Origin: a virus
DNA: 29,478 bases
Reading direction: 5' to 3' (one strand)
Virus record (IMG/VR): IMGVR_UViG_3300026374_000001
Coordinates: 1 to 29,478 of that record
Shown: one piece after another, positions 8,101 to 27,968 of the stretch
How positions within the stretch are numbered: the first letter of the stretch is position 1
How the letters are laid out: each line of letters begins with the position of its first letter
Position numbers and translations under genes: made by a program
Notes under the pieces: generated by a model
The model's database searches: none
What the model was told of the DNA's origin: nothing
What the model saw: only the letters and a program-made list of their open reading frames with translations

Positions 8101-9885
8101 AATCTGCTCCTTGGGCATCTGTGCCGGTAAAGCTGGCTGCGGTACCGGCGGATTTTCCATGAGTCGCTTCAGCCGTGCCATGTCATTCTGAACGATTTCA
8201 GCCGCATCGGCACCGCCACCATATCGCTCGGCACTCTTATGGAAAGCATCGCGCAAGAGAGTTTGCGCATCACCGCCTGCTTTGGCCTCTTCGGACATGG
8301 CATGCTGAATTTTTGCCAATGTCCAATGATCATGCGGGCCGATCGGCGCGCCTTCACGAGGCAGACCACGCAGTGCATATCCGAGCGCGGTCACTCTATC
8401 GCTTCTATCTCCTTCAAAATCGCGCAGCTCGCGCACTAGATCGCGCCAAGCTTGCGGGTCGCTATATTCCGGCCATCCTTGGCCATCCAAATATGCTTGA
8501 TCCTGTTCTGTCAGGTTTGCCTTTTCTTCCAATTCAGCAATTTGGCGATCAAATTCTCTGGCTTCTTTGTCCTTATAGCCGCTATCCCAAGCGCGATCCG
8601 ATTGACGATGGAGCTTGCGCCATTTGTCGGCAGTTTCTTTGTCTCCCAAAATATTGTTCTCAATTGTTTCCTGATTTTCCTTCAGTTTGCCGGCAATTTC
8701 TTGTGCCTTGTCCGCAGTAAGCTCACCCGAGCGCGCAAGTTCAAACGGGTTCTGTGGAGCATACATATCTCCGCGCGGCTTTGGCGGCGCCGCGGCAGCC
8801 GGCGTCGTCAGGTCATGCCGCAGGAACGCATCATTGCGCGCATCGTTCACGGCCTCGGCGGGATGGATGCCGTCCTGCTCCCATAGCCGGCGCAGGTTGT
8901 GCTCGACAATCGGATCAGCGCCGCGCGCTTCTTTATATGGTTTCCCATTTTCATCGAAAATCTGATGAGCCATTAGATCAGAGGAACCTTCAGCCTCCAT
9001 GGCTCGACTACCAATCTGATCTTGCTTCTCCGCAATTTGCTTAGCCTCTTTGCGATCAACATATCTCCCGGTTGACGTGACAAACCCCTCCGAATCACGC
9101 AAAGACCCTATCTCATATCCTGCATCTTTTGCTTTAGCAGACGCTAATCCATGATTGATGTCGCTAAAAATAGAACCATCCTTGGTCTGAACCGCGGCTG
9201 CAGCAATTCTTTCAGGCGTCAATATCTCCGCACTGGTCTTAAAATCCGCATCCCGTGGCAGCTCACCGATCATCTGATCGTGGGATGCCTCAGCTTCCGG
9301 CGCGCGCACGGTGCGGCCGAATTTGGTGCCGGTGCCCAAAGTGAGCAAAGCAGTCTCCATTCCCGGCGCGACGTTGGCCTCGGTGACCTGGCCAGTCTTC
9401 TGGATTTCGCCGGCCGCCTTGATTGCCCGCTCAGGCAATGTCTTGAGGGATTCAATCATCCCACCGAGGACTTGCCCAAATGATGCTGCACCGCCCATCG
9501 ATGCTGCCCTGGCCTCCGGACTGGCGGGCCTGGTCGGATAGCGCTTCTGTATCCTACCTGCTGCCTCCTCCCATGGATCAGTCATAAACAACGGGCCGGG
9601 CCGGCCAAGCGGATCATGTGTGGGGTCGAGCCCCTGCTCCTCTGCAATCCGGCCGGCGATCAAGCGATCCATGAATGACCGGGGTACTGATGGTGTATCG
9701 GGCTCGGTTTGCTGGTCAGATTGCCAGGATGGCGCCTGCGACTTGCTGGTGAACGGCACCCATTTGTCCGGCGTCGCCGGCTTGTCGGCAAATGGCACAG
9801 CCGACTTGCTGGTGAACGGCACCCATTCATCCTTCGGCGCGGCCGGTCCACCAATCGGAACCCATTCATCTAATTCTGGCGGCAT
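5146..9885 (-). CDS. Large internal virion / DNA-ejection protein (gp16-like position)
   Basis: A 1579-aa protein, the largest in the window, in the slot of the T7 gp16-type ejection protein. The N-terminus carries near-repeats of D-K/E-WVPFTSKS (residues 7-50). A conserved-looking stretch at about 236-280 contains GSIFSDINHG and FVTSTGRYVDRKEAKQIAE, a pattern I associate with large polyvalent phage proteins. Long charged helical regions follow. A hydrophobic segment at about 1275-1300 (AAKMAIGIIAVDYAISKI) could insert in the membrane. The C-terminus is hydrophilic. I could not find a convincing lytic-transglycosylase motif. It probably travels in the capsid and helps pass DNA through the envelope. 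The start overlaps the previous stop as TAATG. Confidence 0.75.
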   Translation of the reverse strand: MPPELDEWVPIGGPAAPKDEWVPFTSKSAVPFADKPATPDKWVPFTSKSQAPSWQSDQQTEPDTPSVPRSFMDRLIAGRIAEEQGLDPTHDPLGRPGPLFMTDPWEEAAGRIQKRYPTRPASPEARAASMGGAASFGQVLGGMIESLKTLPERAIKAAGEIQKTGQVTEANVAPGMETALLTLGTGTKFGRTVRAPEAEASHDQMIGELPRDADFKTSAEILTPERIAAAAVQTKDGSIFSDINHGLASAKAKDAGYEIGSLRDSEGFVTSTGRYVDRKEAKQIAEKQDQIGSRAMEAEGSSDLMAHQIFDENGKPYKEARGADPIVEHNLRRLWEQDGIHPAEAVNDARNDAFLRHDLTTPAAAAPPKPRGDMYAPQNPFELARSGELTADKAQEIAGKLKENQETIENNILGDKETADKWRKLHRQSDRAWDSGYKDKEAREFDRQIAELEEKANLTEQDQAYLDGQGWPEYSDPQAWRDLVRELRDFEGDRSDRVTALGYALRGLPREGAPIGPHDHWTLAKIQHAMSEEAKAGGDAQTLLRDAFHKSAERYGGGADAAEIVQNDMARLKRLMENPPVPQPALPAQMPKEQIERILSGREEGEISLRGLGAEVSQAEQIARMIREGKTPTEIMKEMNLESAGYGDDRKNLTVALSRRGVSTDAIMSILEGKPHPLGAAATGNMPPLVSPAVQPVTPPGRLRQIVKDGSSELLGMTRNLQFMLDPMSTGSPRSMAMAKDTANAMRRADWDWMRIDKDIVDRFDPETRRRMYEASDQESVAKQLGVTPEQQAIAKQGLATLKPAELDVVDLLHAEARETWLNMYELGMVKSEEGLPAWTPRMFINTAAGLAEDGALPLNSIGKNFFTRTAQMRHRKYLTAGESEAAAKYKFGEEAELVRDIRVLPMAIARQQKAIAGRQLIEHIKEVGKSAGEELVGGPDPGRFTIDHPAFKTWQPRFKEVELEDGSVAITVVKDHGNIVFDQVPIHVANEFEGPLRAILDEPASKHPLAQSSLSTYQGLMALKGKTMTVIMNSPLIHNAVVWGKVAPSAPGQWLGFRLYFTGNKIKNNPQRAGELVDRGLAPMGNRGSYQDISSIAEAPNLEPGRSLTSSFLSEMLGHLPQKGLTAEQMMTQIKRDVDAAGDFWHNTLLWDRVADVQFGLADHLSNKLVHLGAERIVADRVASHFANMIVGSIPNEAMSQGAKAFLNTVFFSRSFTFGNLQTFKTAALGLPKPLMAQIARDMGMPIAELSKEMGESSVGGFIDTTLKRRAMGNAAKMAIGIIAVDYAISKIMNSFIQNGVNVVLNDSTIDKELHGYAERLKDEFNNTKMDPFRLMHPLSLVDRMTPMSANEPGKENRIFFGYDRDGTALYAKNPVGKYPEEMMDWLGIGTDPMDVIRRKLSPTVGGAFEVFANDKGFGRKIRDLNVNTYGGHIKNIIAAIDHIVGRHFPQDQIMGAADLLRDQGDQKVNAVKAFGPIFGFTTRQGAPGGMGKGEIYSEQDSYKSRLSIERPAIVKMLKNGNQDGAEKAMDAIGMTERDKVMLKRWVEDPSRISPRQRQHFYERATPEQIERLERTGQ
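9739..9827 (-). repeat. Two 26-bp direct repeats encoding the WVPFTSKS units
   Basis: Identical 26-bp copies lie at 9739-9764 and 9802-9827, 63 bp (21 codons) apart, inside the 5' end of the 1579-aa gene. Each encodes the WVPFTSKS element. A more diverged third unit (DEWVPIGG) precedes them. The 21-codon spacing keeps frame, consistent with tandem duplication. Confidence 0.8.
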
Positions 9886-10097
9886 TATTTGATCATCCGA
9901 TAGATCAAGCCCGGCGGAATAACGACTTCATTCTTTTTGAGTTGGGAGAACAAGACGCCGCCGCCTGTTTTGATCGCGGGACGGCTGAAAACCCATCGCT
10001 TTTCACCGGACTCGATATAGGCAGGAGGCCCATGTGTGACATTCCCGGACCACTGCTCATTCGCCGCCCAACTATCAATTTTGAATTTTGTTGCCAT
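9885..10097 (-). CDS. 70-aa hypothetical protein between ejection genes
   Basis: A small basic protein without membrane segments, with blocks FKIDSWAANEQWSG and VVIPPGLIYRMIK. A good ribosome-binding region (AAGAAGGTGA) lies about 6 nt before the ATG. It starts one base after the stop of the 565-aa ejection protein, and its stop overlaps the start of the 1579-aa gene (TAATG), so it is locked into the ejection operon. It may be a minor virion protein or a chaperone of its neighbours. I do not recognise the family. Confidence 0.65.
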   Translation of the reverse strand: MATKFKIDSWAANEQWSGNVTHGPPAYIESGEKRWVFSRPAIKTGGGVLFSQLKKNEVVIPPGLIYRMIK

Positions 10098-10098
10098 T

Positions 10099-11796
10099 TT
10101 ATTTCACCTTCTTTCCCCTGGCATCATAGAGTTGCCCATCCGGCCCGCGCCACTGCCGAAGACCCTCGTTAAAACTCCATCCGGCATCCCTTGGAGGAGC
10201 AAAGGCTGGCGTCGGCGACATCTGCGGCTCCCCCTGGGGTCGGGTCTCGCCCACCTTGCCCGCAGCCAAATTCTTATCGTACTCCTGCGCCTGCTTCATG
10301 GTGACGCGATAGCGAGCGATGTTTTGCGGGGTACCCCAGAAGTAAGGATTGCCTTCCCGCGAATCATAAACAAGGTTCGGATTCTTGCTATCCTTGCGCG
10401 CGGCTTCTTCCTGTTGGCGAGCGCCATCTAGAAACTGCTTCATACGCACTGAGCCGAGCACAGAATGCTGGCCCTGCTTGAAGTTGTAATCACCATCGAT
10501 CAGACGAGCATACACCTTGTTGAATTCTGCACGGTCCTGCGACAACGCAAGACCTTCCGGCGTCTTGCGATCAGCAATCTCTTTCCGCAACATCATGAAG
10601 TCGCGGTCATTGATGGCGTCTTCTGGCTTGGCAGGATTAGTGCGTGCAGTCCAGACCCGTCCCAAAAAGTCCTTTTCATCTAGGTCTTTCCTTGCATCAG
10701 GCGGCAATTCGCCCAGAAATTTGGTCGTATTGGCAGCAGAAATATCGTTCGTGGCTTCAGGCTTTAGCTTTGCATCGATATAGTTAAGCAGATTTTTTCT
10801 ATCATTTTTGGTCAGGGACGGATCATTCAATACTTTCTGTGCCAGCGGATCATTCGCGAGCCTTGGACTTTTCGATGCGGCCTCGATCACATACTGATCA
10901 GTTGCCTCGCTGCTAATTTCGACTTTTTCCTGCTTTTCGCGCCGCTGCTGATGTTCGGCGTCGGCATTGCGCGCCCTGATCTGCTGCCGTGCATTATTGG
11001 CCAGCACAATGGCCTCGTGCCCATTGATGTACTTGGGATATTTTGCGATCCACTCCTGAGCGGTCGCCTCCGGGTCGGCCGACTTCTGGATTGCCCCGAT
11101 CGCGCCGGCCTTGACGATCTGCTCGCGGCTTCGCTCCAGCACCTCGGTCTGTACTTTTGCACCTGCGACGCCACTGATGGGCGACGTGGAGACCAGCCCG
11201 CTGACCGCATGTTCCGATGCTTCCAACAATGTAGGAACGGCTGCCGGAGTGCGGAGCGCGGTGTTGGAACTCTCGTTGGTGAACGTATTGATCGCATTAT
11301 GAATGCCTATACCGGCCGCATGCGACACATCCGCAGACGATTCAACAAACATGTGGTTTCTGGTCTGGCCGACGAAATGCTGAGCCCATTCTTGGCTCTT
11401 TTCCGTCATGAAGCCTTTCTGGAAATTATCCAGCGCAGGCGCTAATGTTTTTTCACGCCATTCATTGATTGCAATCTCGACCTTTGCGCCATAGGCGGGA
11501 TCGTTTAGATCGATCTTCTTAATGGCTTCGTCTTTGCTTTTCCCGAGAGTGTCAAACAATTCTGCGCCGTGGGCGAGCCCGGCTGCAATCTGTTGATGAT
11601 CGATGTATTTGACTGCCACCGCGCCGGCTGCACTGATCGCCGAGCCGTAGCGCTGCCCGGTGCCCTCCTGCGCCGCTGCGGCCTGACTGTAATCCGCTTC
11701 CAGACGCCGTGCTGCGCCGGCAACCGCAGAGATCCCGGTCTCGGTCGGACGTAGGCCAAGTCCCTCGGGCGCGTCATACTGTGTAATCTTGGGCAT
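10099..11796 (-). CDS. Internal virion / ejection protein (gp15-like position)
   Basis: A 565-aa, mostly alpha-helical, charged protein in the T7 gp15 slot, between the gp14-like and gp16-like proteins. It opens MPKITQYDAPEGLGLRPTET followed by an Ala-rich helix (GISAVAGAARRLEADYSQAA). That N-terminus is commonly seen in podoviral internal virion proteins, from memory. The C-terminal part is Gln/Lys-rich and ends in WSFNEGLRQWRGPDGQLYDA. It has no signal peptide or membrane segment. It is expected inside the capsid and exported into the cell during infection. The start abuts the preceding TAG with no gap. Confidence 0.72.
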   Translation of the reverse strand: MPKITQYDAPEGLGLRPTETGISAVAGAARRLEADYSQAAAAQEGTGQRYGSAISAAGAVAVKYIDHQQIAAGLAHGAELFDTLGKSKDEAIKKIDLNDPAYGAKVEIAINEWREKTLAPALDNFQKGFMTEKSQEWAQHFVGQTRNHMFVESSADVSHAAGIGIHNAINTFTNESSNTALRTPAAVPTLLEASEHAVSGLVSTSPISGVAGAKVQTEVLERSREQIVKAGAIGAIQKSADPEATAQEWIAKYPKYINGHEAIVLANNARQQIRARNADAEHQQRREKQEKVEISSEATDQYVIEAASKSPRLANDPLAQKVLNDPSLTKNDRKNLLNYIDAKLKPEATNDISAANTTKFLGELPPDARKDLDEKDFLGRVWTARTNPAKPEDAINDRDFMMLRKEIADRKTPEGLALSQDRAEFNKVYARLIDGDYNFKQGQHSVLGSVRMKQFLDGARQQEEAARKDSKNPNLVYDSREGNPYFWGTPQNIARYRVTMKQAQEYDKNLAAGKVGETRPQGEPQMSPTPAFAPPRDAGWSFNEGLRQWRGPDGQLYDARGKKVK

Positions 11797-12426
11797 CTAC
11801 TTGCTTCCAAAATATCCGGCAGCGCCGCCGATGACGCCGCCAGCAACAGCGCCCCATGGTCCGAGCATCGCGCCTGCGGATGCACCTGCGGCGGCACCCT
11901 TTAGCCCAGCCGAGATGCCCGCGCCCTGTGCGGCCTTGTCCTCCGCTTCAGCCGCCATGCGCGCCGATTGCGCCATCAGGCCGTAGCTTTGCGCCTGCTC
12001 GCGATAGCCGGCCTCCTCGATCAAACCCTGCTGGCCGAGCACCTGCTTGGTGAGCGCACCTTGTGAAGCACTATCGCGCAACAGATCGAGCGCCGAGCCG
12101 CCGGCGCCAAAGCCCGAGGCCGCAACGTCGGCTGCCTGCTGCCCGAGCGCACCCTCAACGGTGCGCTGCTGCTGATAGGTCTTGATCGCGGTCGAAGTCT
12201 TGGTGAACTGCTCGTTCTGCAGTGAGAGTTGTTGTGCCAGATCATATTCTTGGGCCTGGATGCGATTGCCGGCGCCTTTGGTGCGATAGGCAGACGCCGC
12301 GAAGATATCGGCAACCGCACCGCCGGCATTGCTGAATGTGCTGGCGGAAAGACCGAGACCGCCGGTACTGCCGAAACCGCCGCTACCAAAACTTGGCATG
12401 CTGGCAGAATAACTTTCCAGTGCCAT
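11797..12426 (-). CDS. Internal virion protein with glycine-zipper tail (gp14-like)
   Basis: A 209-aa protein in the T7 gp14 slot, directly after the nozzle gene. The N-terminus is Ser/Gly-rich. The middle is a long Gln/Ala-rich amphipathic helix (RIQAQEYDLAQQLSLQNEQF) followed by ASGFGAGGSALDLLRDSA, a pattern typical of podoviral gp14-like proteins. The C-terminal ~40 residues (LKGAAAGASAGAMLGPWGAV onward) form a glycine-zipper hydrophobic hairpin suited to membrane insertion, consistent with forming an outer-membrane pore during DNA ejection. AGGA lies 11 nt before the ATG, three bases past the nozzle stop. Confidence 0.75.
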   Translation of the reverse strand: MALESYSASMPSFGSGGFGSTGGLGLSASTFSNAGGAVADIFAASAYRTKGAGNRIQAQEYDLAQQLSLQNEQFTKTSTAIKTYQQQRTVEGALGQQAADVAASGFGAGGSALDLLRDSASQGALTKQVLGQQGLIEEAGYREQAQSYGLMAQSARMAAEAEDKAAQGAGISAGLKGAAAGASAGAMLGPWGAVAGGVIGGAAGYFGSK

Positions 12427-16465: not shown

Positions 16466-17617
16466 TCATGCACGGCAAGTCACGAAGTCATCTGCTGGAC
16501 TTTCCTCGGGTCCGGCCTCGATGCCATCGACAATGCGCGCCTCGCCCATGAATTTCTTGTAGATATCGGCAATGACCTTGAGCTTGTCGACCGATTGAGT
16601 CAGCGGCTCGCACACCTCAAGCGCCAGGCGAGCACCAAGGCCCTCGCAAAACATTGCATCCATCAGCCGCACATCGTAGACATCGGCGACAAAGCGAAAC
16701 AAAATGGCGTTGACCTGGGCCGAGACGATCAGGCCGTTCTCGATCAGCCAGTCCGAATAGTCCAGGTTCCACGAGGCGCCGAGCCACGGGCTCGATCCGG
16801 CCTTGGGATCTGGCGAAGTCACGCGCAAATAGCCTGCCGGCAGCATAAAGACATTGCGCGAGGTTGATTGTGTCGATGGCCCGGCATTGACCGGATAGAC
16901 GATGTTAGGCGGCACCACCGTCACCCCAAAGGGGAACTCCGTCCCGCCGATCTGCAGCCATTTGATCGAGCCGGTGCCGCCAACGAAGGTCGTCGTCCAC
17001 TGCGTGGGATGGGTGCTGGGTTGCTGATTGAGATTGAGGTCGACCAAGCTCATGTAGGCAATGGCCGAGAACGTCACGACCTGATTCTTGGCATAGGTCA
17101 CGGTTGCGGACCATGCGGTCGCGGTCGCCGGATTGTCGGCATTGGCGTTCTGCAGCGAGAGAAAGACGCGATTGGTGCCATCGCCAACGGCGGTGTAGAC
17201 GAGCTCGCCGGAAAAATACGATGCGGTGCTGTCGTAGATGGCGACTGACATTGGACCAAAATACTGCTGCCAGGCAGGAGTTGATCCAGGCTCGTTGTTG
17301 GCATTGTTCGGGATGACCGATTGCCAAATAACGCCGGCACTATCGGCCACGATCGAGTTGACGAAATAGGTTGGGGCCGCCGACCACAGCGCCGGGCTCA
17401 ACAGCATGGTGGTGGTGTCGACCGGGCGCAGGATCGCCCGCCGGATGGCAAAATTCCAGGCTTTGCGGCGCAGCTCGGCCTGTCTCACCTTGTCATAGAG
17501 CCGGCCGACAAGGCGCGCTTTTTTACTGTCCTCGTTGAAGCCGAGCGTTTCATCGATCGGGTCCTGACCACAATGATCAAGCGCTCGGTTGGCAATGTCG
17601 ACGGCGTTCTGGAACAT
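16466..17617 (-). CDS. Tail tubular protein A / adaptor with three inserted CBM-like modules
   Basis: A 383-aa adaptor that should join portal to nozzle. The N-terminal helical part (AVDIANRALDHCGQDPIDET, VGRLYDKVRQAELRRKAWNF) and the C-terminal part (YLRVTSPDPKAG, ENGLIVSAQVNAILFRFVAD, CEGLGARLALEVCEPLTQS) match podoviral gp11-like adaptors, which are usually near 200 aa. The excess is residues about 77-209. This holds three successive units of the form W-x5-Y-x3-V-x6-Y/W-x5-N-x5-P-x4-W, resembling CBM5/12 chitin-binding modules. No Shine-Dalgarno is seen before the ATG. A 43-nt leader with a GGGCA/TGCCC hairpin touches the start codon. Confidence 0.85.
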   Translation of the reverse strand: MFQNAVDIANRALDHCGQDPIDETLGFNEDSKKARLVGRLYDKVRQAELRRKAWNFAIRRAILRPVDTTTMLLSPALWSAAPTYFVNSIVADSAGVIWQSVIPNNANNEPGSTPAWQQYFGPMSVAIYDSTASYFSGELVYTAVGDGTNRVFLSLQNANADNPATATAWSATVTYAKNQVVTFSAIAYMSLVDLNLNQQPSTHPTQWTTTFVGGTGSIKWLQIGGTEFPFGVTVVPPNIVYPVNAGPSTQSTSRNVFMLPAGYLRVTSPDPKAGSSPWLGASWNLDYSDWLIENGLIVSAQVNAILFRFVADVYDVRLMDAMFCEGLGARLALEVCEPLTQSVDKLKVIADIYKKFMGEARIVDGIEAGPEESPADDFVTCRA

Positions 17618-17647
17618 GGGCAGGGAACTTGCCCCGCCGGCCGGTCA

Positions 17648-17660
17648 CCGCAACGCACCC
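17648..17660 (-). promoter_or_regulatory. Stop-linked motif copy 2 (GGGTGCGTTGCGG)
   Basis: It directly follows the TAA of the repeat-protein gene and is identical over 13 bases to copy 1. It starts a 43-nt leader to the adaptor ATG. That leader also holds CCGGCCGG and a GGGCA-AGTTCCC-TGCCC hairpin ending at the start codon. No ribosome-binding site is visible. Same interpretation as copy 1. Confidence 0.4.
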
Positions 17661-18923
17661 TTACCAGGACTTCAACTGGCCGAAGGTGGCGAAAAATGGC
17701 ATGTCATGATGCGGTGCCTCCGGGGGTGGTTGCACCTGCACCGTGTTGAACGGCACGAAGGTGTAGCCAACCGTAAACGTCGTGTACGGGATCGGCACTG
17801 CCCGTGAGAGTGGCGACAGATATGCGATCGAGTTGACCGTGTTGAAGATTTGCTGGACGGTGTTGAACGGAACAAAAGTGATGCCCTGCCGCACCGGCGG
17901 CTGGTTGGCCGGCCGGGACAACGGCTGCTGGTAATTGCCCCAGTAGACCGTATTAAACTGGGTATCGAGGAACGTATAGCTGACACCGCCTTGCCAGACT
18001 GGCGGCCGATCGGCCGGTCGGGACAACGGCTGCTGATAGTTGCCCCAATAGACCGTATTCTGGGTGAACTGGGTGTCGAGGAACGTGTAGCTCAGGCCGC
18101 CCTGCCAAACTGGCGGCCTGGCTGCAGCCTGCGATAGTCCTTGCCACCAGCCATAATTGGCCGCGACGACGATCTGGGCGGTGTCGAACGGCACAAATGT
18201 GCTGCCGATCGCCGCTCGTGGAATCGGCACCGCAATCGACAACGGCTGCTGATACAGCGAGTAATCGATGGTGTTGAAGATGATCTGTGCCGTATTGAAC
18301 GGCACAAAGGTAAAGCCGGCCCATACTGGCGGACGAGGCGCGGCCCGCGAGAGCGGCTGCTGATAGTTGCCCCAATAGACCGTGTTCTGGGTGAACTGGG
18401 TATCGAGGAAGGTGTAGCTCGGGCCGCCCTGCCAGACCGGAGGCCGCGGAGCAGGACGACTTAGCGGCTGCTGATAAGTCGAGTAGTCAGCCGAATTTTG
18501 TGTGAACGCCGTGTCGCGGAAGGTGTAGCTCGGGCCGCCCGGCTGCACTGGCCGCCGGTCCACCGCCTTTGACAGCGGCTGTTGCCATCCGACGCTGGCA
18601 ACTGCCGGCGCCGGCGGCACCCAAGTCAGGCCCGACGCCGCGATCATCCCTAGCGAGAGCGCCACCCTGACGGCGGGAGCGGAATAGCTGGTGAGGGCTC
18701 CGTAGACCTGCGTAACCGCCACCACAGGCGGCGGCAACGGAATCGTCAGAGCCTTGTAGTAAACGCGCGGGCCTTGAATCCGCGCGATTTGTTGCACAGG
18801 TATTCCGGCAAGCTTTATCTGCGGGGCGCCAACGTCAGGCACCGCCCGTGAATTATCGACAAATATCCCTATGCCGAATTTCTGACTTCCAAGAGCCTTC
18901 GGAACACCCTTCGGGTTTGGCAT
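17661..18923 (-). CDS. Repeat protein with eight ~36-residue units in AABBAABB order
   Basis: A 420-aa protein of unknown function in the virion block, between an accessory protein and the adaptor. Residues 1-105 are non-repetitive (Val/Ala/Pro-rich). Residues about 108-395 hold eight units, most opening QQPLSRP. Type A units contain GGxSYTFLDTQFTQNTVYWG (units 1, 2, 5, 6) and type B units contain TFVPFNTxQ (units 3, 4, 7, 8). The order AABBAABB implies a two-step duplication. It is rich in Gln, Pro, Trp and Tyr and poor in charge, with no signal peptide or TM. It starts 7 nt after the previous gene without a clear ribosome-binding site, so coupling is likely. It may be a virion surface or tail-sheathing component. 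That is inference from position only. Confidence 0.75.
   Translation of the reverse strand: MPNPKGVPKALGSQKFGIGIFVDNSRAVPDVGAPQIKLAGIPVQQIARIQGPRVYYKALTIPLPPPVVAVTQVYGALTSYSAPAVRVALSLGMIAASGLTWVPPAPAVASVGWQQPLSKAVDRRPVQPGGPSYTFRDTAFTQNSADYSTYQQPLSRPAPRPPVWQGGPSYTFLDTQFTQNTVYWGNYQQPLSRAAPRPPVWAGFTFVPFNTAQIIFNTIDYSLYQQPLSIAVPIPRAAIGSTFVPFDTAQIVVAANYGWWQGLSQAAARPPVWQGGLSYTFLDTQFTQNTVYWGNYQQPLSRPADRPPVWQGGVSYTFLDTQFNTVYWGNYQQPLSRPANQPPVRQGITFVPFNTVQQIFNTVNSIAYLSPLSRAVPIPYTTFTVGYTFVPFNTVQVQPPPEAPHHDMPFFATFGQLKSW
17735..18600 (-). repeat. Tandem and super-tandem DNA repeats inside the repeat-protein gene
   Basis: The eight 105-111-bp units are visible at DNA level. The block starting CGGCTGCTG recurs at 17922, 18027 and 18354. 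The copies at 18027 and 18354 stay nearly identical for about 88 bp and are offset by 327 bp (109 codons). The 17922 and 18354 copies are offset by 432 bp (144 codons), the length of one AABB super-repeat. All offsets are multiples of three, so copy-number change would keep the frame. Confidence 0.85.
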
Positions 18924-18930
18924 CTGAAAA

Positions 18931-19470
18931 TCAGTTCAGCGAGCGCCAGGTGTGGAACTTGGGAATGACGGATGGCGCAACGCTGAACGTGACACCGATC
19001 CACAATGCCTGTGCGATCGTGGTATCGACAGCAACCGCTGCGCCAACGGTTCCAGCAACAACCGCAGTTTCGCTGGCTGCCGTTGCAACTGCACCGTTGG
19101 ATTGCCAACTGCCGTATCCAAGTGCGGTCGAATTGGTGCCGGCGCCGCCAATCGTTCTGAACGTCAGATAATAACGGAACAGAAACGGCGCGGTCGTGAT
19201 GCTAGGCACATAATTCTGGGTTGGCGAAACGCCGAGCGAAACACCGCCGATGACAGTGCCAAATCGTGGCGTGAGAATAAGAGTTCCAGCAGCACCAGTC
19301 GTCACTGTGCCACCAACAATTAGTTCGTAGACCTTCCCAACCTTCGGCTCGAAAGCCGGAATAGGCGTGAAGATGGTCGGAATTAGAACCGTCTCAGTGG
19401 TCGCGGTGATGGTTGCATGGTCGGCGCCGATCGGTTCGCCGAGCACATCGCCAAAGTACTGTCTGCTCAT
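18931..19470 (-). CDS. Accessory virion protein, beta-rich, unknown function
   Basis: A 179-aa protein with alternating Thr/Val/Ala and Gly, little charge and no TM. Segments such as ELIVGGTVTTGAAGTLILTP and FLFRYYLTFRTIG suggest a compact beta sandwich like many phage head or tail decoration proteins. It ends PKFHTWRSLN. GAGGG lies 6 nt before the ATG. It lies in the accessory block between capsid and adaptor. I do not recognise a named family. Confidence 0.65.
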   Translation of the reverse strand: MSRQYFGDVLGEPIGADHATITATTETVLIPTIFTPIPAFEPKVGKVYELIVGGTVTTGAAGTLILTPRFGTVIGGVSLGVSPTQNYVPSITTAPFLFRYYLTFRTIGGAGTNSTALGYGSWQSNGAVATAASETAVVAGTVGAAVAVDTTIAQALWIGVTFSVAPSVIPKFHTWRSLN

Positions 19471-19479
19471 TTTGTGCCC

Positions 19480-19605
19480 TCAATATTCCACCATAACCGG
19501 CGGGTCTGGTTGAGCCACAACAACACTGATGACCACGAAAATATCAGGCGGCACATCATCCGGCACCTCGCCGAGCGCCAATACACCGAGTGCCTCGAAG
19601 ATCAT
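19480..19605 (-). CDS. 41-aa hydrophobic protein
   Basis: A very short gene translating as MIFEALGVLALGEVPDDVPP followed by DIFVVISVVVAQPDPPVMVEY. Its ATG overlaps the stop of the preceding 61-aa gene (ATGA) and it fills the gap before the 179-aa gene, whose GAGGG ribosome-binding site overlaps its stop region. Two short hydrophobic stretches could be strands or a small membrane peptide. The overlap and acceptable codon use support it, but at this length chance cannot be excluded. Confidence 0.5.
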   Translation of the reverse strand: MIFEALGVLALGEVPDDVPPDIFVVISVVVAQPDPPVMVEY

Positions 19606-19787
19606 GACTGCAACTCTACATTGCCGTTACTTTTCATGGCCGCGTCAGGGTCCACAGTCGGAATTCCGGCTGTGCTTGCAGCCTTTGAAATATCAGCGAT
19701 CAGCACAGCAACCTCTGCATAAGGTTGCCGTGACAGGTAACCGACGATCCGGTTGGCAAGCTCAAGTGACAGTGTAATGCTATTCAT
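19602..19787 (-). CDS. Small phage protein, 61 aa
   Basis: It begins MNSITLSLELANRIVGYLSR and continues with a second helix (YAEVAVLIADISKAASTAG). The form resembles small phage proteins that often accompany virion genes in rhizobial prophages, from memory. Its start overlaps the previous stop and its stop overlaps the next start (4-nt overlaps at both ends), so it is firmly in the operon. Function unknown. Confidence 0.62.
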   Translation of the reverse strand: MNSITLSLELANRIVGYLSRQPYAEVAVLIADISKAASTAGIPTVDPDAAMKSNGNVELQS

Positions 19788-20107
19788 GGCGTCACCGGTG
19801 TGTTGTCGATGTCGAACTGTCGCTCGGTGTCCGACATTTTGTTGAGCAACTGAAGTATCTGTTGGCCGCTTGCCGTGACACCGCCAGCGGTGTAGCTCTT
19901 GGCCGCGATCTGCGACGAGGCGCGTTCAACAACCGGCACCGCTGTACGATCCCGGCTCACGACCTTGCCAGTCGTGGTATCCTTTGCCCGCAGTTCACGA
20001 TGGCAGCGGATCTGCACCACATCTGTCTCGTCGACGAAGAATTCAATGCGCCAAGTTCGATCGACGATGTTCTGCGTTGTGGTGGTGTTGCCCTGGTCGA
20101 TTGCCAT
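19784..20107 (-). CDS. Accessory virion-region protein, 107 aa
   Basis: A charged soluble protein with a beta-like N-terminal half (RTWRIEFFVDETDVVQIRCH) and a helical C-terminal half (ASGQQILQLLNKMSDTERQF). AGGA lies 7 nt before the ATG, and its stop overlaps the next gene by 4 nt. It follows the fibre-like gene closely. I do not recognise the family. A minor tail or fibre-assembly role is possible by position. Confidence 0.62.
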   Translation of the reverse strand: MAIDQGNTTTTQNIVDRTWRIEFFVDETDVVQIRCHRELRAKDTTTGKVVSRDRTAVPVVERASSQIAAKSYTAGGVTASGQQILQLLNKMSDTERQFDIDNTPVTP

Positions 20108-20116
20108 TTTGATGTC

Positions 20117-21247
20117 CTATGCGGATGTGATGGCGGCCCAGGTCGTGCTGCCCGTTGTGTTGCTGTACAGTCGCAAGCTTGCACCAGCATTGTCGGTGCG
20201 GATGTAGATCGAACCCGATGCCGCCGAGACCGTCGGCGCGCCAGAGCCATAGTAGATGCCGAAACCGGCCGTGGTACCGAACAACAGGCGGGCCGAAGTT
20301 GATCCGCCTGCTGGCGTTGCTATGTCCGACCGGATGGTGATGTCGCCACCGCCATCGAGGCGCATTCGCTCGGTACCATTCGAGCCAAGTTGTACTGGGT
20401 GATTTGTACCTGAACCAAAGCGAACTGCACCAAAGGTTTCTGATGCGAAGAATTCTCCTTGAATAGTCGCAGATGTGTCGCTGGCAAAATGCACGAAACA
20501 ATTGGTACCATCGCCAAAGATATCAAAAGGTGCGTTCGTAGATTGGGCTTGATTAATGCCCACATTGCCAGTACTGGCGATGCGCATATGCTCGGTCGCC
20601 GCCGCGCCTGCTGCCATCGTCTTGAAAACGAGGTCAAAATCCTCCGACGTACTAGTGACATCAGTTGCCACCGCCTCAATCGTAGCGCCTATCTCTAGGT
20701 TGCCTGCCGTCGTCTCGACCTCAAATTCCAGGCTCGCGCCGATGCCGTTTGCTGGTGTGCCGGTGCTGCTGGAAGACAACCGCATTATTGGCGTGACGGT
20801 GTTTGTCGCCGCGCTGTCTATGCTAATCTGAGTCTTCCCCGCAATATTCAGCGCCCCACCAATCCCCACTCCGCCCGCCACAATCAGCGCACCAGTTGTC
20901 GAGGAGGTCGAGACGGTGGTGTCCGTGAAAGCATTGGCCTCGCGCAGATTGGCAATATCTTCCTTCGTCGCCGAGATGTAGACCTGGGCCGATCCAGACA
21001 AGCTGATCGCTGCATCAGCGTTGGTCGATTTACTCACTGTGCGGGTGAGCGTCGTACCGGCTGACGTGTAAGTGCCAGTGCCAACCTCGCTGTTGGCGCC
21101 ATCACGAATACCATAGGAGACAATCTGCCCGTCGGTCACGCCCGCCAGCGCAAACGTAAGGAAGCCCGACACCGCCCCGCCAAGCGTGATGGTGCCGGTG
21201 CCGATCGTCGGCGTCGTCATGCGGGCAAGATTGTAGAGCTTAGCCAT
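20117..21247 (-). CDS. Tail-fibre-like protein in the accessory block
   Basis: A 376-aa structural protein. Its N-terminal domain (MAKLYNLARMTTPTIGTGTI, TLGGAVSGFLTFALAGVTDG, then SYGIRDGANSEVGTGTYT) is a common opening of phage tail and fibre proteins. The rest is repetitive, Ser/Thr/Gly-rich beta structure with a VAGGVGIGGALNIAG hinge like those in trimeric fibre shafts. A later EHMRIASTGNVGIN element resembles the MRI-x3-GNVGIG motif that precedes fibre tips. No C-terminal chaperone domain is visible. It overlaps the upstream CxxC gene as TGATG. Together with the spike at 3927-5102 the phage has two candidate adhesins. Confidence 0.75.
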   Translation of the reverse strand: MAKLYNLARMTTPTIGTGTITLGGAVSGFLTFALAGVTDGQIVSYGIRDGANSEVGTGTYTSAGTTLTRTVSKSTNADAAISLSGSAQVYISATKEDIANLREANAFTDTTVSTSSTTGALIVAGGVGIGGALNIAGKTQISIDSAATNTVTPIMRLSSSSTGTPANGIGASLEFEVETTAGNLEIGATIEAVATDVTSTSEDFDLVFKTMAAGAAATEHMRIASTGNVGINQAQSTNAPFDIFGDGTNCFVHFASDTSATIQGEFFASETFGAVRFGSGTNHPVQLGSNGTERMRLDGGGDITIRSDIATPAGGSTSARLLFGTTAGFGIYYGSGAPTVSAASGSIYIRTDNAGASLRLYSNTTGSTTWAAITSA

Positions 21248-21522
21248 CAGACCGGATCTCTATTGCGCTTGGCTGCCTGATAGAGCTCCATCGCCCGGAT
21301 TTGTGCCTCCAGCTTTTTCTCGAACGGCGTACAGCCCTTGCCAGCGCAGGTTGGGCAGATCATCTGATAGCATTGCGGGCAGCGCGTGAGGTCCCGCCGG
21401 CTCGTCATGTCCACCCAGTGAACATGCACAACCCGATTGCAGTGATAGCAGGTATATGTATCGGTCTCGTTGACCCCGATCGGCCCGGTTAGAGTGGCAT
21501 AGCCGCTGGCGCCGCGAATCAT
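21247..21522 (-). CDS. Zinc-finger-like CxxC protein, 91 aa
   Basis: A small soluble protein with three CxxC pairs, CYHC, CPQC and CPTC, separated by His-containing spacers (VVHVHWVD). This suggests two zinc sites of ribbon or RING-like type, followed by a charged helix (FEKKLEAQIRAMELYQAAK). The ATG at 21522 is chosen over GTG at 21528 because GGAGG lies 7 nt upstream and it overlaps the previous stop as ATGA. It is next to another Cys-rich gene. Role unknown; an assembly factor or regulator are both possible. Confidence 0.72.
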   Translation of the reverse strand: MIRGASGYATLTGPIGVNETDTYTCYHCNRVVHVHWVDMTSRRDLTRCPQCYQMICPTCAGKGCTPFEKKLEAQIRAMELYQAAKRNRDPV

Positions 21523-21806
21523 TGCCACGCCTCCAGCTCAATCAACAACTGACCTGCATCCTGTATCCATTTGCTGTGGCGAGTGCAGACCGTGCAGGAT
21601 AGGCGGGCCGCGCCGTCCGCGGGATTGCACTCAACGAGTCGCCAGTAATTGTGCAGACTCTCGCCGGTCTTCTCGTCACGATGCGGGCCAAACGGCCATA
21701 GTGGTGGATTGTCCAGACGATCGACGTAGTAATCGCCGGGACCCATCTCGCTGCGCTTCTGCACCTTGCAAGGTGCCCCGCAGACCTTGCACGGCGCCAG
21801 TTGCAT
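21519..21806 (-). CDS. Cys-rich zinc-ribbon-like protein, 95 aa
   Basis: It has an N-terminal CKVCGAPCK cluster and a C-terminal CNPADGAARLSCTVCTRHSK region, enough cysteines for one zinc site. Between them is an aromatic/Pro-rich middle (DRLDNPPLWPFGPHRDEKTG). The 4-nt overlap with the following 91-aa gene and the shared CxxC style suggest the two act together. The ribosome-binding site is weak (TTGAGTAA). No known function is recognised. Confidence 0.68.
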   Translation of the reverse strand: MQLAPCKVCGAPCKVQKRSEMGPGDYYVDRLDNPPLWPFGPHRDEKTGESLHNYWRLVECNPADGAARLSCTVCTRHSKWIQDAGQLLIELEAWQ

Positions 21807-21812
21807 GAGCGA

Positions 21813-22328
21813 TTACTCAAGCCATTTTAGTTCGGTGATGCAAGTCGAGGCGTAGGTGGAACTCGCCGCCCGCACACCATAGCCGGCCTCGTCGGTCGCC
21901 GGGATGATGATATCACCGGGTCCGCCCGGATTGACCACCCAGCGATAGGATGCGCGCTGGTTTGCCGCCAAGCCCCAGCGTGAACTGTTCGCCGTTACCG
22001 TCGGTGCGGCCGTGAAATTGGCGTCCGCCGTGATACGTCCGGGGATGTCGGCCTGGTCGAGTGCCACTGGCACCATGCCAGCACCGGAGGCGGTGCCCGC
22101 CGCCGTCACCGCCGACAGATCCCATATAATGGCGCAATCGGTGGCATTTGGCAGCCCATTGGCGCCGACGCTGATCTCGTAGATGCGGGCGCGGCTCACG
22201 CCGAGCGTGGTGGTCTCTGCCGTGATCGCCAGCAGGCAACCCGTGGCGGCGCCAAGCGTGGTGCTGATGTTGGATAGCGCGCCAGCCGACGCAAAGCCGG
22301 GGCCGTTATTGACGGTGTAGAGAGCCAT
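21813..22328 (-). CDS. Accessory virion protein, 171 aa
   Basis: It begins MALYTVNNGPGFASAGALSN and ends TCITELKWLE. It is beta-rich with low charge and contains LGVSRARIYEISVGANG and RWVVNPGGPGDIIIPATDEA, a layout common in phage structural proteins encoded near the capsid (head fibre, decoration or tail collar). AAGGAG lies 6 nt before the ATG. I cannot name the family, but the coding evidence is strong. Confidence 0.68.
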   Translation of the reverse strand: MALYTVNNGPGFASAGALSNISTTLGAATGCLLAITAETTTLGVSRARIYEISVGANGLPNATDCAIIWDLSAVTAAGTASGAGMVPVALDQADIPGRITADANFTAAPTVTANSSRWGLAANQRASYRWVVNPGGPGDIIIPATDEAGYGVRAASSTYASTCITELKWLE

Positions 22329-22358
22329 TTCAGTCTCCTTATGCGGCGGCGGCTCGGA

Positions 22359-22637
22359 TTATCCGATCAGTTTTCTCATCTTGCCCTGGAGTTCTTCCAG
22401 CGCGGCCTTCTGGGATTGCACATCAACTTTGGTCTTCTCCAGCTCGGCCTGCGCCGCCGCGATATCCTTCAAGGTACGATCTAGCGCCGCTCTCTCATCA
22501 ACGATATTTTCCAGTGCCGCTATCAGATCGGTCATCACAGCCTTTGGCGTATCCTGCACAGCCCTAAGCACCGCCAGCAAATTCGCCGCGTTGTCGGCGG
22601 CCGCTACGCTTGTCGCTCCCAGGGTTCCAAACGACAT
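22359..22637 (-). CDS. Small coiled-coil protein, 92 aa
   Basis: After an Ala/Asn-rich N-terminus, residues about 32-88 form one continuous charged helix with heptads (IAALENIVDERAALDRTLKD, AAQAELEKTKVDVQSQKAAL), so it is probably a dimeric or trimeric coiled coil. An AGGG ribosome-binding site precedes it. It sits among minor virion genes. It could be a fibre stalk, tape-like spacer or assembly factor; function unknown. Confidence 0.65.
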   Translation of the reverse strand: MSFGTLGATSVAAADNAANLLAVLRAVQDTPKAVMTDLIAALENIVDERAALDRTLKDIAAAQAELEKTKVDVQSQKAALEELQGKMRKLIG

Positions 22638-22644
22638 TTTTGCC

Positions 22645-22965
22645 CTATGTGCTCAAGATCGCAGCGACTTTGAATCCGGCCCCGAGCGGGACGGCGTGAT
22701 ATTCGGTCTGTCCCGCGGCCATCCGCGTCGTCATGCCCGCGCCGATCGCCACCGCGGTCGGATTGAGGCCAAACTCGATGCAACAGACCGTGTCGGTATG
22801 CAGCCGTACGAACCGGGTCTTAGCGTTGAACGCACTTGATTGCGTGGTAGCGCCGGCATTGGCAACGCCTTGTGACGCCAGCGGCGGCTGCATCGGCATC
22901 TGCCCGGTACGGCCGGCTGGGCCAATCTGCATCTCGGCAAATTCTGTTACGTCAAGAAATGCCAT
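22645..22965 (-). CDS. Accessory virion protein, 106 aa
   Basis: A beta-rich protein with MAFLDVTEFAEMQIGPAGRT, then TRFVRLHTDTVCCIEFGLNP, TRMAAGQTEYHAVPLGAGF and the end KVAAILST. The pattern RFVRLHTDTVCCIEFG resembles small phage proteins found in rhizobial prophages beside capsid genes, from memory. GAGG lies 4 nt before the ATG. It is likely a small decoration or connector component; unproven. Confidence 0.65.
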   Translation of the reverse strand: MAFLDVTEFAEMQIGPAGRTGQMPMQPPLASQGVANAGATTQSSAFNAKTRFVRLHTDTVCCIEFGLNPTAVAIGAGMTTRMAAGQTEYHAVPLGAGFKVAAILST

Positions 22966-22971
22966 TCGTCC

Positions 22972-23235
22972 TCACGTCAGGATCGAGCCCCAAGGGCCGC
23001 CCATAAGGCTTACTGTGCATTCATCGACAACATTGGGTGAGATGCCGGCCGTGGTGGCCGCGGATTGCACGGCGACGAGAAAAGCAACATCGGCCGCCAC
23101 GATCGCCGCCTGATAAGCCGTCAGGTTGGCGAACACGCCGGCATAGGTCACGCCGGCGGCTCGATAGGCTTCCTGCTTGAGGCCGGCAGCCGTATTGACC
23201 GCGACGATGAATGCCTGCTCTTTCGCGGTCGCCAT
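22972..23235 (-). CDS. Small Ala-rich helical protein, 87 aa
   Basis: It begins MATAKEQAFIVAVNTAAGLK and includes AAIVAADVAFLVAVQSAATT. These are amphipathic or weakly hydrophobic helices without a true membrane segment. The ATG at 23235 is preferred over the longer frame: GGAGG lies 6 nt upstream and it overlaps the previous stop as TGATG, while the extra 26 Arg-rich residues of the longer frame come from the out-of-frame shadow of the upstream gene. Function unknown. Confidence 0.65.
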   Translation of the reverse strand: MATAKEQAFIVAVNTAAGLKQEAYRAAGVTYAGVFANLTAYQAAIVAADVAFLVAVQSAATTAGISPNVVDECTVSLMGGPWGSILT

Positions 23236-23474
23236 CAGACGCCTCCAGTTCCGAGCGCGCGCAACAGCGACTGGAATGGCTCGATGCCGGACCCGCCATT
23301 GTTGGCGTTGCACGAAACGATGCAGGCCCGTGCCCAGGCAATCTCGGCAGTGTTATACACGGCCTGGCCGGCCGCACTCTGCGCCACGCCGGCGACCGAG
23401 CTCTGCCGCACGCTTTCAGCAGCCGAGAGCGCGGCGTCATGTATGGTCAAACCAGTCTTGATCTTTCCGCCCAT
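23235..23474 (-). CDS. Small Ala/Ser-rich protein, 79 aa
   Basis: It begins MGGKIKTGLTIHDAALSAAE, with a Cys pair in ARACIVSCNANNG, and ends LLRALGTGGV. AGGA lies about 7 nt before the ATG. Its stop overlaps the next start (TGATG). It appears to be one of a string of tiny coupled genes downstream of the capsid gene. No recognised family. Confidence 0.6.
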   Translation of the reverse strand: MGGKIKTGLTIHDAALSAAESVRQSSVAGVAQSAAGQAVYNTAEIAWARACIVSCNANNGGSGIEPFQSLLRALGTGGV

Positions 23475-23483
23475 TGGCCTTTC

Positions 23484-23750
23484 CTATCGTCGCTTGCGGC
23501 TGCGGCTGCGGCTGTGGTGATCGTCACCATCCTCGGCATCCACCTCGGCCTCGGTCTCGTCCTCGGCCGGGATAGCGCTGAGCTCCTCGGCCTCGGCCTG
23601 CGCATTGGCGGCGGCATAGTCCGCGGTCAGATCGCGATTGAACTGCTCAAGCGCCTTGGCGGCCGGGGACTCATGCTGGGCACCCAACGCCTCCATGTGC
23701 AGCCGCTGTAGTTTGCGTTGGGCGGCATCGGGCGGGATGTCTTCGGCCAT
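23484..23750 (-). CDS. Acidic protein with Arg/Ser-rich tail, 88 aa
   Basis: The N-terminal half is helical (PPDAAQRKLQRLHMEALGAQ). The second half is strongly acidic (AEAEELSAIPAEDETEAEVD) and then flips to a basic, disordered end (HHSRSRSRKRR). The sharp charge split suggests binding to other proteins or nucleic acid through the tail. AGGTGA lies 3 nt before the ATG. Function unknown. Confidence 0.62.
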   Translation of the reverse strand: MAEDIPPDAAQRKLQRLHMEALGAQHESPAAKALEQFNRDLTADYAAANAQAEAEELSAIPAEDETEAEVDAEDGDDHHSRSRSRKRR

Positions 23751-23757
23751 GCGTCAC

Positions 23758-23982
23758 CTATAGGACTGGTGTCGTGGTGAAGATTGGCCCGCTTTCGATC
23801 AGCCGCTCGAACGCCTCCAGCGCCTTGATCAGGTCCTTGCGGGTCAGCACAGCGGCATTCAAGTCCGTGGTGTTGAACCGGAACTCGATGTCGTCGGCAT
23901 TGGGCGCCAGCGCTCCGGTCGTGAAGTCGCTGATCTTGAACCCGTCGTTGCCGCGTTTGATGGAGAAAGAGATGCCTGCCAT
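23758..23982 (-). CDS. Small capsid-region protein, 74 aa
   Basis: It begins MAGISFSIKRGNDGFKISDF, has a strand-rich centre (ADDIEFRFNTTDLNAAVL) and a C-terminal helix (KDLIKALEAFERLIESG). GGAG lies 6 nt before the ATG. It is placed immediately after the 194-aa capsid-associated gene. It is likely a minor structural or assembly protein; family not recognised. Confidence 0.65.
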   Translation of the reverse strand: MAGISFSIKRGNDGFKISDFTTGALAPNADDIEFRFNTTDLNAAVLTRKDLIKALEAFERLIESGPIFTTTPVL

Positions 23983-23985
23983 CGC

Positions 23986-24570
23986 CTACTCCACGTAATC
24001 GACTTTGATGCCGATGATCGGCGTCGTTACCGTTGGCACCGTCGTCGCCTTCATGATGATGTCGAAGAAGCCGCCGGGGTCGGTGGTGAACTGCGTCGCC
24101 CCGAGGTTCACCAGCGCTTGCCACAGCGGCAAGTTCGTCATCGCCAGCGTGAAGATGGTGCTGGCCGCCGCGAATGTTTGGTCGGTATCGACCAGGATGG
24201 CCGCGGTCAACGCCTTGGCCGTGCCGAACAGCTTGTTGTCAACCGGCCCGGTGATCTGCACCACCGGATTGGTCAGCGTGGCGAGTGACGGTGGCGTGCC
24301 ATCATTCGGATTATCGCTGAATGCCACGTCAATATCAGCCGCGCCAGCCGTGGCGACCGCGGTGATGACCAGGCCGACACGCTTGATCTTGGCATTGGTC
24401 GGGATACGCACAAAACGATACATATCGCCGATCGTGCCGAGCAGCGGCGCGGTGACGAAGTCGTTCACCGACTTGAGAAAGCCGGGTCCGCCCTCGCCCG
24501 TGGTGGGCTGGACTTGCGGGCTGGAGTCCCAGGAGATGATGCTTGCAGATTTGGTGATGACCAGGGCCAT
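23986..24570 (-). CDS. Capsid-associated structural protein, 194 aa
   Basis: A mostly beta protein with sections IKRVGLVITAVATAGAADID, TLTNPVVQITGPVD and the end PIIGIKVDYVE. It is the first gene after the major capsid protein. AAGGAG lies 6 nt before the ATG and the gap is 10 nt. The position and the low-charge sandwich composition suggest a head decoration or cement protein. This is inference from context, since no named motif is visible. Confidence 0.68.
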   Translation of the reverse strand: MALVITKSASIISWDSSPQVQPTTGEGGPGFLKSVNDFVTAPLLGTIGDMYRFVRIPTNAKIKRVGLVITAVATAGAADIDVAFSDNPNDGTPPSLATLTNPVVQITGPVDNKLFGTAKALTAAILVDTDQTFAAASTIFTLAMTNLPLWQALVNLGATQFTTDPGGFFDIIMKATTVPTVTTPIIGIKVDYVE

Positions 24571-24580
24571 GGGATGCTCC

Positions 24581-25507
24581 TTATGGCGTCACGTCGGCGG
24601 CGGCCGAGGTATCGGCGCAGAGAACCTGCAACAGCCGGCCGGGCTCGAGCCGGGTGGCGCCCGAACTCATGCCGGTCCAGAGTTGATAGGGCAAAGACGA
24701 CAAATCCTTGCGCTGGGTGACGTCGTTCTGCACATCCTTCCAGATGCCCAAATAGATGCCCGTCTTGACCCAGGTGATGTTCTGCCGAACGTTGGCCGAT
24801 GAGGTCAAACGCTCGGAGTAGATGATGTCGTAACCCATAAAGCGGGTCACCTTGCCCTCGACCAGAGTTGGCCGATCGGCACCCGAGAAGTCGGTCGACA
24901 CGACCTGCACCTGATTGAGCAGATCGGACTCGCCCTGGGAGTTGGTGATCCAGGTCAGCGACTCCATGTCCACATCAACCTGCGCCTTGCGGAAGATGCG
25001 CTTGGCCTCGATCATCTTGGCCACCGTCAACCCGGAGGCCGCCGAGGAGCCGAAGGTCGAGGCGATCTGGAACAGGCCAGAGGCGTTGAATACCTCGCCG
25101 GAGAGGCCGCCAGCATCGGCGCCGATCTGCGCGGTGGCGAACGATGCGCCGATCAGCCGATCATCCCATTCGCGGGCGACAGCGGCGGCGGCCACGTCGG
25201 AATACTGGCTGGTCGGGTCCTGCAGCAGCTTGAGCTTGTCAAAGCCATCGATGAGCTGCACCGCCTCCTTGTCGACCGGGAACACCCACCTGCGGGTGAA
25301 GTCGACATCCTGACGATCCAGGGGGGCGTACCGGCCCGTCGGGGTCTTCATCTGGATGGCGCCGATGTATTGAACGGGCGACGCCTGCTTGCCGAGATGA
25401 AAACCCTCCATGCAACGTCCGCGCAGTTTACTGGTGCGCTGCTGGAGCTTGACGTTGAGGATGGTGGAAAACTGAGTGACGTAAAGTTTGAATAGATTCT
25501 CGGACAT
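24581..25507 (-). CDS. Major capsid protein
   Basis: A 308-aa protein expected to form the HK97-fold capsid shell. Typical elements are VTQFSTILNVKLQQRTSKLR, the E-loop-like area GKQASPVQYIGAI, and the long helix DPTSQYSDVAAAAVAREWDD with LIGA after it. The A-domain includes KMIEAKRIFRKAQVDVD, then ITNSQGESDLLNQVQVVSTD, and VTRFMGYDIIYSERL, a phrase common in podoviral capsid proteins. CGGGAG lies 8 nt upstream. The gene follows a structured ~290-nt interval, the longest non-coding stretch in the late region, consistent with separate control of this most abundant protein. Confidence 0.85.
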   Translation of the reverse strand: MSENLFKLYVTQFSTILNVKLQQRTSKLRGRCMEGFHLGKQASPVQYIGAIQMKTPTGRYAPLDRQDVDFTRRWVFPVDKEAVQLIDGFDKLKLLQDPTSQYSDVAAAAVAREWDDRLIGASFATAQIGADAGGLSGEVFNASGLFQIASTFGSSAASGLTVAKMIEAKRIFRKAQVDVDMESLTWITNSQGESDLLNQVQVVSTDFSGADRPTLVEGKVTRFMGYDIIYSERLTSSANVRQNITWVKTGIYLGIWKDVQNDVTQRKDLSSLPYQLWTGMSSGATRLEPGRLLQVLCADTSAAADVTP

Positions 25508-27691: not shown

Positions 27692-27968
27692 GATCGGGGT
27701 CTCCATCTGTTGCGGTACCGACAGCGCCGTAGAGCGCTGCCAAATCTTCCAGTCCAAGGCTCAGGTGCTCCTGTATGCGCAGGAACACCTCACGGCGTCC
27801 CTCCAGAACGGCATGAACGCGCGGGTCGGCGTGGAAGCAGGTCGCCTCGGCGCGGCAGAACTTGCGCAGGTCGGTCATCACCCGCTCGGAATGCGCCCCG
27901 GCAAACGTGAGCTGATAGGCGGCCTTGCGCTCGCGCAGATAGTCCAGCGTCTCCATCGACACCGTCAT
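27684..27968 (-). CDS. Bbp19-like phage protein
   Basis: A 94-aa helical protein of the Bbp19-type phage family (named after a Bordetella phage gene) often found beside the portal. Diagnostic stretches are AYQLTFAGAHSERVMTDLRK, then FCRAEATCFHADPR and LEGRREVFLRIQEHLSL. The start overlaps the portal stop by 4 nt (ATGA) and the stop overlaps the scaffold start by 8 nt. Its exact role is unknown. Position suggests head assembly. Confidence 0.75.
   Translation of the reverse strand: MTVSMETLDYLRERKAAYQLTFAGAHSERVMTDLRKFCRAEATCFHADPRVHAVLEGRREVFLRIQEHLSLGLEDLAALYGAVGTATDGDPDHV

Follow-up and report, generated by a model that had tools for sequence, protein, structure and literature searches.

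An eight-unit repeat protein with a shared C-terminal tag in the virion gene block of a short-tailed phage

The repeat gene P0001 lies in the virion operon of a short-tailed phage and encodes eight peptide units that are kept alike by purifying selection. The protein has homologues in other viral contigs, is linked to a large family of phage repeat proteins, shares its C-terminal tag with proteins made of different repeats, and its gene behaves as part of a cassette. We tentatively propose that P0001 may be an accessory, extended and multivalent virion protein anchored by the tag; its presence in the virion, docking, conformation and anchoring are what we infer, and we hold this reading to be plausible rather than probable.

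Tandem-repeat structural proteins of phages are a known kind in general. What is new is that, in a mobile cassette and within a common but unnamed family, the repeat body and the C-terminal tag are apparently exchanged separately. Proteins of this type are encoded in the structural block of dozens of uncultivated phages, yet remain unnamed in Pfam, PHROGs and NCBIfam. Recognising the unit and the tag would make annotation of this family possible, and it raises the testable question of whether repeat number and the exchangeable tag set the attachment of an extended strand to the phage particle.

Architecture and history of the repeat array

The window, i.e. the whole 29,478-bp virus record that was analysed, carries the structural block of a short-tailed phage on the minus strand (Table 1). 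A sequence-only reading of this DNA had placed a protein of no recognised function just before the tail adaptor. Both statements agree with our searches: Pfam, PHROGs, NCBIfam and PDB gave negative or chance-level results only for P0001, and the next gene downstream is T7 gp11-like. The product of this adaptor gene has 383 aa compared to the 190 positions of the phrog_394 profile, and a weak CBM_5_12-like match at its residues 168–207 suggests inserted carbohydrate-binding modules. Residues 972–1123 of the gp12-like protein form a Laminin_G_3 domain (ConA-like lectin). A 1579-aa protein (5146–9885), for which Pfam gave no match, starts with a small repeat (DEWVPI.../DEWVPFTSKS.../DKWVPFTSKS...) faintly resembling the FVPF heads of P0001.

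Table 1. Features of the window and of the repeat gene
Feature	Position	Strand	Remark
T7-type connector	27965–29461	(-)	PF12236
Scaffold-like gene	structural block	(-)	
Capsid protein	24581–25507	(-)	
Run of small genes	listed after the capsid gene, before the repeat gene	(-)	
Accessory-cassette gene (hp21813)	21813–22328	(-)	homologues accompany the repeat family
Accessory-cassette CxxC protein (hp21247)	21247–21528	(-)	homologues accompany the repeat family
Upstream neighbour of the repeat gene, 179 aa	18931–19470	(-)	
Repeat protein gene P0001, 420 aa	17661–18923	(-)	
N-terminal module, residues 49–131	18531–18779	(-)	collinear with the N-module of WxxPLSEPVR proteins
Short hydrophobic segment RVALSLGMIAAS, residues 86–97	18633–18668	(-)	predicted helix; counterpart LAVALIASGLF in relatives
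Unit A1	18420–18530	(-)	
Unit A2	18312–18419	(-)	
Unit B3	18201–18311	(-)	
Unit B4	18093–18200	(-)	
Unit A5	17982–18092	(-)	
Unit A6	17880–17981	(-)	shorter by 2 codons
Unit B7	17763–17879	(-)	
Unit B8	17664–17762	(-)	reduced to a head, followed by the linker PPPEAPHHD and the C-terminal tag
C-terminal tag MPFFATFGQLKSW	17664–17702	(-)	common to L003, L150/L185 and L021; degenerate in L022 and L023
T7 gp11-like tail adaptor	16466–17617	(-)	phrog_394, E 1.6e-32
gp12-like tail protein, 1340 aa	12430–16452	(-)	phrog_376
Internal virion protein genes (internal-virion-type protein in structural block)	5146–12426		

P0001 consists of eight units of ∼37 aa (33–39 aa), whose head types follow the order AABBAABB far above chance. 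This order, and the count of eight, had been proposed from the sequence and were recovered when the heads SYTF (type A) and TFVPF (type B) were located at residues 132 and 169 (A A), 205 and 242 (B B), 278 and 315 (A A), and 349 and 388 (B B). Phasing on the QQPLS core also yields eight units, spaced by 35–37 aa. A half-unit, WQQPLSKAVDRRP, stands before A1, and B8 is truncated. The linkers that follow the heads repeat with the same period (A-R, A-R, B-P, B-R / A-R, A-R, B-P), so the 4-unit order is more than a mere labelling of heads, and the proposal of two unit types with a 4-unit period is supported. At the DNA level, the best 45-nt self-identity within the gene was 0.98, compared to a maximum of 0.67 among 30 codon shuffles; all the significant offsets (105, 111, 321, 327, 432, 438 and 654) are divisible by three, as had been claimed.

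The repeats are old, and selection at the protein level keeps them similar. The sequence-only reading had instead taken a 432-bp offset between copies as a super-repeat and its visibility in the DNA as the mark of a recent super-duplication. We observed the strongest diagonal at 327 bp (A2 versus A5; 98% over 45 nt), followed by 111, 438, 105 and 432, and the identity was only 73% over 88 nt at offset 432 and only 74% at 438. A near-identical tract of ∼88 bp, also part of that reading, does exist (92%), but at offset 327 (18358–18445 versus 18031–18118). The closest unit pairs by DNA were A2/A5 (82%) and A5/A6 (85%). After a recent super-duplication A1/A5, A2/A6 and B3/B7 are expected to be the closest pairs, yet their dS values (NG86; estimates from short, partly saturated sequence) were 2.9, 1.8 and 1.9, respectively, compared to 0.73 for A2/A5 and 0.76 for A5/A6. 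This synonymous divergence ruled out a recent AABB super-duplication as the last step.

Over head, linker and core, A2, A5 and A6 show 6, 7 and 9 synonymous codon differences and no non-synonymous ones; therefore, what makes the copies look alike in DNA is purifying selection at the protein level together with later duplication or homogenisation of units. The simplest account of the array is an old 4-unit period with subsequent duplication or exchange of units within type A, and with purifying selection acting on the peptide. Misassembly of the region was judged unlikely, because the longest exact repeat within the gene is 30 nt and the copies differ at many synonymous sites.

Homologues and a related repeat family

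A tblastn search of a phage collection gave no relatives of P0001, and no cultured relative of the family was found there. Peptide-pattern searches of genome contigs and viral contigs gave none until the TFVPFNT pattern was tried, which retrieved three true homologues, all on contigs of uncultivated viruses (IMG/VR), namely L150, L159 and L160 (extended loci L185, L187 and L186, respectively). Their BLAST E-values range from 1e-17 to 5e-23 (4.6e-23, 1.9e-18 and 3.2e-21, respectively, among 25-odd ORFs), and from 1.6e-13 to 3e-15 in a tblastn-type genome search. The homologues have the same WQQPLS...FVPFNT unit of ∼36 aa, and homologues of hp21813 and hp21247 lie upstream in all three. Unlike P0001, they have hardly any type A heads (SYTFLDTQF) and do not follow the AABBAABB order, and the genes downstream differ from those of the window. 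Literature searches found no account of P0001-type repeats.

The pattern WxxPLSEPVR retrieved many further repeat proteins of phages. This unnamed family (L035–L132) comprises 64 non-redundant ORFs with a widely variable number of detected units (2–21) at a modal spacing of 36–37 aa. Residues 49–131 of P0001 aligned with its N-module over 70–72 collinear columns (hhalign score 29.6–30.9, probability ∼80%), a score that no shuffle reached in sets of 200 and 300 (maximum 19.7 and 19.0). We relied on this profile–profile control since hmmsearch alone was borderline (rank 2 of ∼4000, including shuffles). The units of the VPFNT proteins matched those of the family with a probability of 91%, with none of 100 column shuffles as good, and the P0001 units alone with 51–87%, a comparison that is partly circular because a PLSEPV pattern had served to collect the family.

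P0001 has the WxxPLS core at a spacing of ∼36–37 aa and an N-terminal module with an ALIASGLF-like segment. The second half of the unit, SEPVRxKxxLxxxxQQ, is absent and replaced by RPAPRPPVWQGG...SYTF/TFVPF, and the unit HMM of the family detected the PLS core alone. As this second half is missing, P0001 and its three homologues are treated as a putative sister group beside the WxxPLSEPVR family rather than as members. The same upstream cassette genes accompany both; the family differs in the QQ-rich half that stands in place of FVPFNT, in other C-terminal modules, and in its surroundings, the T7-type connector of the window not being found in the contigs tested. None of these repeat proteins had a match in Pfam or NCBIfam, and the PHROGs matches were all short and to families without a known function. 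The family occurs almost exclusively on viral contigs, and a genome scan gave two contigs of one MAG. These two short contigs (L075 and L076; Patescibacteria MAG REEB161) are possibly mis-binned phage contigs.

The C-terminal tag and the accessory cassette

Among the 18 loci retrieved with the adaptor, only L003 has a repeat gene at the corresponding place. Its capsid protein is 94–95% identical to that of the window, and DNA homology was present in gp11 but not found in the repeats. These are of another kind (LPVG.../DWPNPR...), without detectable similarity to the P0001 repeats. The agreement between the two proteins is limited to their last 13 residues, of which 11 are identical (MPFFATFGQLKSW versus MPFIATPGQLKSW). 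The tag was seen again on L185, a protein retrieved by its repeats, which ends in LPFLVTIGKLKSF, and on L021, of the DWPNP type, which ends in LHFHATLGRLKSF. Relaxed to F.A..G.[LM] and allowed anywhere in the last 25 aa, the motif is present in L003, L021, L022, L023 and only one other among ∼4,675 ORFs, a descriptive count since the form was generalised after these four had been viewed. As the tag is common to a VPFNT homologue and to unrelated DWPNP bodies, the repeat body and the tag appear to be exchanged independently.

The DWPNP family (unnamed; L003, L021–L034) resembles P0001 in composition, in the tag carried by L003 and L021, and in the slot before gp11 (L003, L021 and L023). The units themselves show no detectable similarity to those of P0001 and scored at background level (hhalign probability 1–2%), and homology between them was rejected. 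Several DWPNP proteins (L028, L030–L033) end in another module, GGxARAxxLTxxQRxxIAxxAAxxRW, and a TerL-like gene follows the repeat gene in L028, L031 and L033. The idea that the tag docks specifically on gp11 was weakened, as L185 carries it with TerL as the next gene; a specific tag–adaptor contact is thus not supported.

Homologues of hp21813 and hp21247 were found at 34 and 32, respectively, of 60 WxxPLSEPVR loci and at all three VPFNT loci, and were missing from all 15 informative adaptor relatives without a repeat gene. The repeat gene and its companions are absent from these 15 relatives, which share MCP/gp11. These data indicate that the repeat gene travels in an accessory cassette between the capsid and adaptor genes. 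The conserved pairing with small cassette genes nearby would also suit a non-virion assembly helper that does not stay in the particle, either scaffold-like or acting as a chaperone for proteins of the cassette or for the adaptor. Long tandem arrays are rare in such helpers, and we regard this explanation as improbable.

The upstream neighbour of P0001 has a homologue (43% identical) directly upstream of the DWPNP repeat gene in L023. The slot between capsid and gp11 (17617–24581; compared with L002 and L004–L019) is a hot spot: in many relatives it measures about 1 kb, and in others (L003, L010–L013) it holds 6–7 kb of unrelated accessory genes.

Predicted conformation and proposed role

P0001 is rich in proline (12.9%) and aromatic residues (14%), has few charged residues (D/E 3.1%) and no cysteine; the other window genes scanned have less than 9% proline. 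AlphaFold gave a mean pLDDT of 42 (16 sequences), with no secondary structure except the helix at residues 86–97 and the tag, the sole confidently modelled segment (pLDDT 74–80). A WxxPLSEPVR member (34 sequences) was modelled mostly as coil (mean pLDDT 54; N-module 54–78). Neither run, both of low confidence from shallow alignments, predicted regular secondary structure per repeat or the solenoid suggested earlier. Together with the composition, the coil models make an extended chain most likely, but low confidence of this origin is no proof of disorder, and models of this kind could also arise from alignments with few sequences.

A predicted unfolded state would also suit an internal protein that is held in the head and delivered with the DNA through the short tail, and the hydrophobic segment close to the N-terminus fits the same explanation. 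However, the internal virion proteins of this phage are encoded elsewhere (5146–12426), and P0001 resembles none of the internal virion families in PHROGs; we regard ejection as quite improbable. A host-interaction fibre or adhesin, i.e. a long appendage close to the neck that attaches to the cell surface and whose reach depends on repeat number, would account for the variable unit number among relatives and for a gene that is accessory and exchangeable, as receptor-binding genes are. This is unlikely, as no beta-structure, trimerisation or chaperone domain is predicted, no similarity to fibre families was found in P0001, and the units are strongly conserved within the protein rather than diversified.

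Several observations favour the accessory virion strand proposed here. The gene sits in the virion operon between the capsid and tail-adaptor genes, and the family is found almost only on viral contigs, with homologues beside TerL, gp11/gp12-type neck or phrog_3287 virion proteins. The gene and its companions are missing from the 15 relatives that have MCP/gp11. The composition, the coil models, the purifying selection on the units and the occurrence of the tag on different repeat bodies speak for the same reading. P0001 would then be a long strand, extended over most of its length and rich in proline, aromatic residues and glutamine; each of its ∼36-residue WQQPLS...FVPFNT-type units would dock at one copy of a site that occurs many times on a particle component. 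The N-terminal module and the exchangeable tag would anchor the strand, which would lace or decorate the head or neck region and be dispensable for particle building. It is rather doubtful, though conceivable, that such proteins form a new class in tailed-phage virions, i.e. unstructured multivalent lacing strands of ∼36-residue aromatic/proline units, with bodies and C-terminal docking tags exchanged independently in a mobile cassette across several short-tailed lineages.

The tape-measure or glue protein P30 of PRD1, a minor component of the virion, acts as a cement between capsomers and makes a mesh on the particle (PMC3185693). Virus and protein are unrelated to those described here and share no sequence link with them; by analogy only, P0001 may work like P30.
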